In this document: piece by piece, positions 39,026-39,373 of the stretch
Layout: each line of letters begins with the position of its first letter
Numbering within the stretch: position 1 is the first letter of the stretch
NCBI GenBank assembly: GCA_021835025.1
Contig: JAKBQY010000023.1
Span: forward strand, 1 to 53,066
Direction of reading: 5' to 3'
Origin: Thermoplasmata archaeon
GTDB taxonomy: Archaea > Thermoplasmatota > Thermoplasmata > Thermoplasmatales > Thermoplasmataceae
Length of the DNA stretch: 53,066 nt
Made by a program: the position numbers and the translations under genes
Notes under the pieces: generated by a model
The model's input: the letters and a program-made list of their open reading frames with translations, nothing else
Database searches by the model: none
Told to the model about the DNA's origin: nothing

Positions 39026-39286
39026 TTATATCACACTCTTTACAATAATCCGGTAATACTCGTAATAACCGGCTGTGGGGCTTTTCCGAATTATTCTTAT
39101 CATTCTCCCTGGTTCAAGTTTTCCGTATATTTCTTCCAAGGCTTTAATTGCAGGATCATTGATGCTTATCTTGGGAAGATTTTCTTTTGAAACGTTGAGT
39201 TTACTCAAAATATTTAACTCTTCTTCAACTGGAACCAGATGATGTTCTGGCACTATTTCGTGCTCAAGCACATTGAACTTACTCAT
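39026..39286 (-). CDS. rpoH: DNA-directed RNA polymerase subunit H
   Basis: Homologue of the eukaryotic Rpb5 C-terminal domain (86 aa). [15 protein letters not shown] at the N-terminus and [21 protein letters not shown] at the end are the family signature. GGTGATAAA lies directly before the ATG, beginning a few nt after the end of the tRNA-Lys gene. First protein gene of the RNA polymerase operon. Confidence 0.95.
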
Positions 39287-39299
39287 TTTATCACCAAAA

Positions 39300-39373
39300 C
39301 GGGTCCGAGGGGGTTTGAACCCCTGACCGTCTGGTTAAAAGCCAGACGCTCTACCTAGCTGAGCTACGGACCC
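39300..39373 (-). tRNA. tRNA-Lys (TTT)
   Basis: Minus-strand cloverleaf: acceptor GGGTCCG/CGGACCC, D arm GCTCAGCTAGGTAGAGC, anticodon arm TCTGG-CTTTTAA-CCAGA, T arm AGGGG-TTCAAAC-CCCCT, discriminator G, no encoded CCA and no intron. It ends 13 nt before the rpoH ATG in the same direction. Confidence 0.95.

Follow-up and report, generated by a model that had tools for sequence, protein, structure and literature searches.

A tRNA-Lys(UUU) gene directly upstream of the RNA polymerase operon in the Thermoplasmatota as the probable source of the operon's promoter and mRNA 5′ end

Introduction

In Escherichia coli, tRNA genes are co-transcribed upstream of the gene for a housekeeping protein, tufB, and in mitochondria cleavage at the 3′ end of a tRNA determines where the following RNA begins, an arrangement termed tRNA punctuation. 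In the archaea, the rpoH-B-A genes of Thermoplasma acidophilum were reportedly sequenced together with a nearby tRNA by Klenk and co-workers in 1992. Processing of the E. coli metY-nusA-infB transcript frees the tRNA and sets off degradation of the mRNA behind it (Regnier and Grunberg-Manago 1989, cited in PMC5371410), and in Haloferax an archaeal tRNase Z makes the 5′ end of 5S rRNA (Holzle 2008, cited in PMC7714728).

Here, we describe a tRNA-Lys(UUU) gene that directly precedes the RNA polymerase genes of an acid-loving archaeon (genome G000, 1.68 Mb; nearest relatives G001 and G002). The locus lies in a 53,066-nt contig, referred to as the window. Like tRNA-tufB it is tRNA-led, although that system has a longer spacer, several tRNAs, and a bacterial host. 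The likeness to metY-nusA-infB is that a tRNA heads an operon of transcription and translation genes and would be freed by processing; the differences are that the E. coli operon (PMC5371410) is bacterial, is processed by RNase III, carries an internal P2 promoter, contains no RNA polymerase genes, and is cut in a way that starts decay. As in tRNA punctuation and the Haloferax 5S case, a tRNA 3′ cut would define the start of the RNA that follows; unlike in those systems, this RNA is a long RNA polymerase mRNA, and its cleavage is a prediction. The core gene order is that of archaeal rpoH-B-A operons such as Methanococcus rpoHB2B1A1A2, for which the accessible part of PMC10450193 mentions no leading tRNA, whereas here the promoter would come from the tRNA, as probably would the 5′ end of the mRNA. 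A literature search of partial coverage returned no description of a tRNA-Lys–rpoH linkage, which is weak evidence of novelty.

Results

The window carries tRNA-Lys(UUU) on the minus strand at 39300–39373 (Rfam RF00005, 72 bits; placed by ARAGORN at 39299–39374), the only copy of this gene in the genome. It is followed by a 13-nt spacer, TTTTGGTGATAAA (39287–39299, minus strand), and by rpoH, encoding RNA polymerase subunit H/Rpb5 (39026–39286, minus strand; Pfam PF01191 Rpb5_C, E = 1.7e-25). Inside the spacer, a Shine-Dalgarno (SD) sequence, GGTGAT, occupies 39290–39295, 3 nt 5′ of the rpoH ATG. The preliminary description had recognized this layout of two co-directional genes 13 nt apart with an SD site in the gap, and ARAGORN, Rfam, the ORF coordinates, and the sequence itself agree on it. 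Further along the minus strand lie rpoB (35433–39023; Rpb2 domains 1–7), rpoA1 (32773–35436; Rpb1 domains 1–5), rpoA2 (31256–32776; Rpb1 domain 5), and, as the last gene of the presumed operon, one for a nusA-like KH protein (30820–31251; PF13184, 4.3e-10), whose start we infer to be an internal ATG. The junctions from rpoH to the nusA-like gene are short spacings or overlaps, each of 2–4 nt, and a convergent amino-acid permease gene closes the unit. Gene content and order are those of the archaeal rpoH-B-A1-A2-nusA operon. Judged by sequence, the tRNA and rpoH also have the makeup of a tRNA-mRNA operon, being co-directional and promoter-free between, with a promoter motif solely upstream of the tRNA.

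For 133 genomes of the phylum we compared the stretch ahead of rpoH, with other archaeal phyla sampled unevenly; a single-protein search of a named genome collection yielded 22 loci. An automatic scan placed tRNA-Lys(UUU) directly upstream of rpoH, in the same direction, in 116 of the 133 genomes. By eye the count is 118, the two additions being G137, which the scan missed, and G049, in which a contig end cuts the tRNA. Within the window's family the pair is present in 47 of 47 genomes with a gap of 11–21 nt, which leaves rpoH no space for a promoter of its own. The pair has lasted in over 30 families, although the neighbours of other tRNAs are replaced. As a gene-order control, the flanks of tRNA genes sharing an anticodon were compared by BLAST between G000 and G025, which we take to be Thermoplasma volcanium. 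Among 42 comparable tRNAs, the downstream co-directional gene is kept only at Lys(UUU), where it is rpoH. The tRNA-Lys–rpoH linkage is far from chance and is conserved across the phylum, as both the T. volcanium control and the phylum scan show.

About eight tRNAs keep an upstream co-directional gene between G000 and G025 (e.g. Ser-GCT, Ser-TGA, Gly-TCC, Thr-CGT, Ile, and Met), which suggests that these tRNAs form the 3′ ends of transcription units. Outside the order, introns in tRNA-Lys are frequent (anticodon loop, D arm, or T loop), for which reason ARAGORN and other standard finders miss or misname the gene there; intron occurrence and gap length both vary widely. At loci L087–L116 and L213–L232 of other families, the tRNA-Lys(UUU) gene ahead of rpoH is often intron-bearing, T-loop introns included. 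In Pyrodictiaceae/Desulfurococcales MAGs (L146–L148), a tRNA-Lys lies about 200 nt upstream of rpoH in the opposite direction, and the neighbourhood may therefore predate the phylum.

Some lineages have lost or widened the pair. In family f3 of the same order, tRNA-Lys precedes rpoH in none of nine genomes, so the pairing is not essential; the tRNA is single copy and located elsewhere in the two f3 genomes checked. The pair is also absent in a few other genomes, and loss or uncoupling is seen, besides f3, in two genomes of f4 (G046 and G052), in f24, and in f32–f34. A TATA box sits in the widened gap of G046 and of families f24 and f32–f34; some uncoupled lineages have thus acquired a TATA box where the gap widened, or else relocated the tRNA. 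A simple pattern, less reliable in GC-rich genomes, found no gap TATA box in many other wide-gap families.

Conserved sequence also lies ahead of rpoH in families f11 and f3. In family f11 (L102–L105, L117–L121, and L267), the 124–138-nt spacer between tRNA-Lys and rpoH contains a near-invariant hairpin, CUUCAUGAGCGAUCG-n-GGAUCAAGUAUGAGG, with a 7-bp stem, a 3x3 internal loop, and a 4-bp stem. The hairpin is noncoding by frame and gave no Rfam match at the three loci searched; an extension of RpoH into this spacer of about 130 nt was considered and rejected, as the reading frame is not kept. In f3 (L033, L047, L048, L051, L052, and L054–L057), where tRNA-Lys is missing, rpoH is preceded by a conserved leader, GCAATTCCAGAGGTT...TTGGATTGC or CTCTGGAAT, which is about 100 nt long and capable of self-pairing.

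A promoter motif trained on 146 promoter-proximal genes of G000 consists of an A-rich BRE and TTTATAT and starts 33 nt before the (leaderless) start codon; the TATA of first genes lies near −28. No promoter motif was detected when the tRNA-Lys body and the 13-nt gap were scanned with it: the best score is −8.4, whereas first genes have a median of +5.2 and a tenth percentile of −0.4, and in nearly all tight-gap relatives the same region scores ≤ −2.2. The best BRE/TATA match of tight-gap genomes lies mostly 40–49 nt upstream of the tRNA, so transcripts would start about 8–15 nt before it. In the window, the homologous box and probable BRE/TATA of the tRNA-rpo promoter is AAAAGGTTATGATT (39406–39419, minus strand; score 0.2); its aligned counterparts are AAAAAGTTATATCC in A. 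aeolicum (score 7.2) and AAAAAGTTATATCA in G011 (7.3). This distal box is degenerate in both the window's species and G001 (GTTATGATT/GTTATGGTT).

The best motif match ahead of the tRNA in this genome is a proximal box, AAAAAATTATAGCG (39387–39400, minus strand; score 5.2), which starts 27 nt before the tRNA and is probably the one reported earlier as the only visible TATA box. The relatives bear out a promoter upstream of the tRNA, but the box so named is probably not functional, because the usual 33-nt spacing would initiate transcription inside the tRNA; possibly it overlaps the initiation region. Relatives possessing the distal box keep the stretch TATAGC-GACTAC. The window's species would use either the weak distal box or the proximal box with a different spacing, and it is here that the case for the promoter is weakest.

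Farther upstream, a palindrome-bearing element, TACTATTTAGTAATAT (39430–39445, minus strand; palindrome TACTATTTAGTA), lies 57–72 nt from the tRNA. Its position is conserved, at a fixed 55–57 nt from tRNA-Lys, in the three genera represented by Acidiplasma, Ferroplasma, and Picrophilus-like genomes, and an exact match occurs once each in G000, G011, and G020. The element is a candidate regulator-binding site.

Leaderless starts dominate the promoter-proximal genes of G000. By a rough count with starts from a simple script, an SD sequence precedes 10% of promoter-proximal and 46% of internal genes. With its SD right behind the tRNA, rpoH resembles an internal gene in this respect, and a purine-rich, SD-like stretch is found in the gap of nearly all tight-gap relatives.

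The genome encodes a tRNase Z (contig C17, 150142–151023; TIGR02651, 329.9 bits), and RNase Z scored above the cut-off in six of six genomes tested. A CCA directly after the discriminator base can block tRNase Z; in the window the discriminator is followed by TTTT and no CCA is encoded. Short U tracts can terminate archaeal transcription, and this run of four T opens the 13-nt gap and counts against full read-through, which may therefore be partial. We considered whether the gap holds a conserved terminator and rejected this, since the run of T varies among genomes.

A second tRNA-led pair is found on contig C11 of the same genome (about 11226–11492; L192:9926–10196, L292, and L303), where tRNA-Gln(UUG) is followed at 1–2 nt by a gene for a ubiquitin-fold protein (Pfam SAMP2, E = 2.9e-7). 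The pair occurs in most genomes of the family, with a gap of 1–15 nt, and is absent from the two genomes of the genus Thermoplasma tested. A tRNase Z cut behind this tRNA would leave a near-leaderless SAMP2 mRNA. SAMP2/Urm1-type proteins provide sulfur for thiolation of the wobble uridine in Lys(UUU), Gln(UUG), and Glu(UUC) tRNAs, so the SAMP2-like product may modify the very tRNA with which its transcript begins. The second conserved pair suggests that tRNA-led mRNA is a general mode.

Discussion

We consider it probable that tRNA-Lys(UUU) and rpoH-rpoB-rpoA1-rpoA2-nusA form one unit transcribed from the tRNA promoter, from which the tRNA is cut out to leave an mRNA with a 13-nt leader. A BRE/TATA upstream of the tRNA would drive the whole unit, with transcription starting about 8–15 nt before the tRNA and running on through the polymerase genes. 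The tRNA would then be excised by RNase P and tRNase Z; cleavage by tRNase Z behind the discriminator base (39300) would place the mRNA 5′ end at 39299, and rpoH would be translated from the SD of the cut product. Co-transcription is well supported, from comparative sequence, by the conserved gaps of 11–21 nt, the upstream promoter, the promoter-free tRNA and gap, and the internal-type SD. The earlier assertion that the mRNA must be co-transcribed with the tRNA thus gains comparative backing from gaps, promoter, and SD, but "must" is too strong. It is likely that tRNase Z creates the mRNA 5′ end. Gene order, conservation across the phylum, promoter position, the motif-free tRNA and gap, the type of SD, and the tRNase Z gene are observed; from them we infer co-transcription, cleavage, and any coupling of polymerase level to tRNA synthesis or processing.

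The operon could, in principle, be transcribed independently of the tRNA from a TATA-less or otherwise unusual promoter concealed within the tRNA sequence. Archaeal transcriptomes commonly show internal promoters, unusual ones can escape a motif scan, and a TATA box does sit in the gap where G046, f24, and f32–f34 have widened it. However, a promoter serving the gap would have to lie in the GC-rich T arm, in the window and nearly all tight-gap relatives this region scores below the weakest tenth of first genes, and an SD straight after the tRNA is unlike the promoter-proximal genes of G000; we regard such a promoter as highly improbable. Another reading accepts co-transcription and holds that tRNA excision triggers decay of the mRNA, each dicistronic transcript serving as a tRNA or as an uncleaved mRNA. 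The cleavage of metY-nusA-infB, which frees the tRNA and starts downstream decay (PMC5371410), is a precedent, and the cut product here would bear a 5′ monophosphate. An SD within 13 nt past the cut, with SD-like stretches in nearly all tight-gap genomes, better fits a translated cut product, and the corresponding cut at tRNA-Gln–SAMP2 would yield a near-leaderless mRNA, a usual kind in G000. Decay triggered by excision thus seems to us unlikely.

The question of regulation is much more evenly balanced. The pair may be co-transcribed and yet conserved passively, a shared promoter making separation harmful, with no regulation through the tRNA; this is compatible with the unit proposed above and denies only its regulatory part. 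Regulation through the arrangement is a possibility; two genes held together passively by one promoter would present the same picture. The losses and uncouplings in f3, f4, f24, and f32–f34 and the free variation of introns and gaps outside the order agree with passive conservation. Persistence through more than 30 families amid the turnover of other tRNA neighbours suggests more than inertia, however, and the conserved upstream palindrome hints at a regulated promoter. We lean only slightly against a purely passive linkage.

With co-transcription and tRNase Z cleavage as the preferred reading, RNA polymerase probably derives from a transcript with a tRNA at its front, freed when this tRNA is excised. 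If so, an entire archaeal phylum would rely on a tRNA promoter and tRNA 3′ maturation to make its core polymerase subunits, transcription capacity would be tied to the translation machinery, and the locus would be a conserved archaeal case of an mRNA 5′ end created by tRNA cleavage. A bolder version, which we hold to be doubtful, is that this wiring (tRNA promoter, tRNase Z-made 5′ end, and feedback of processing on the polymerase) was in place before the classes of the phylum separated and that its principle was reused for tRNA-Gln(UUG)–SAMP2. The culturable Ferroplasma, Thermoplasma, and Aciduliprofundum carry the question, and the uncoupled lineages are natural controls.

A tRNA-Leu(UAG) with an ORF 9 nt downstream (L202) was considered as a further operon and rejected, as the ORF looks like an inserted transposase. 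Short overlapping ORFs at 44723–45288 of the window resemble pieces of this transposase-like protein (shared motif ITAHGIRIR), and this region is probably a decayed insertion sequence.
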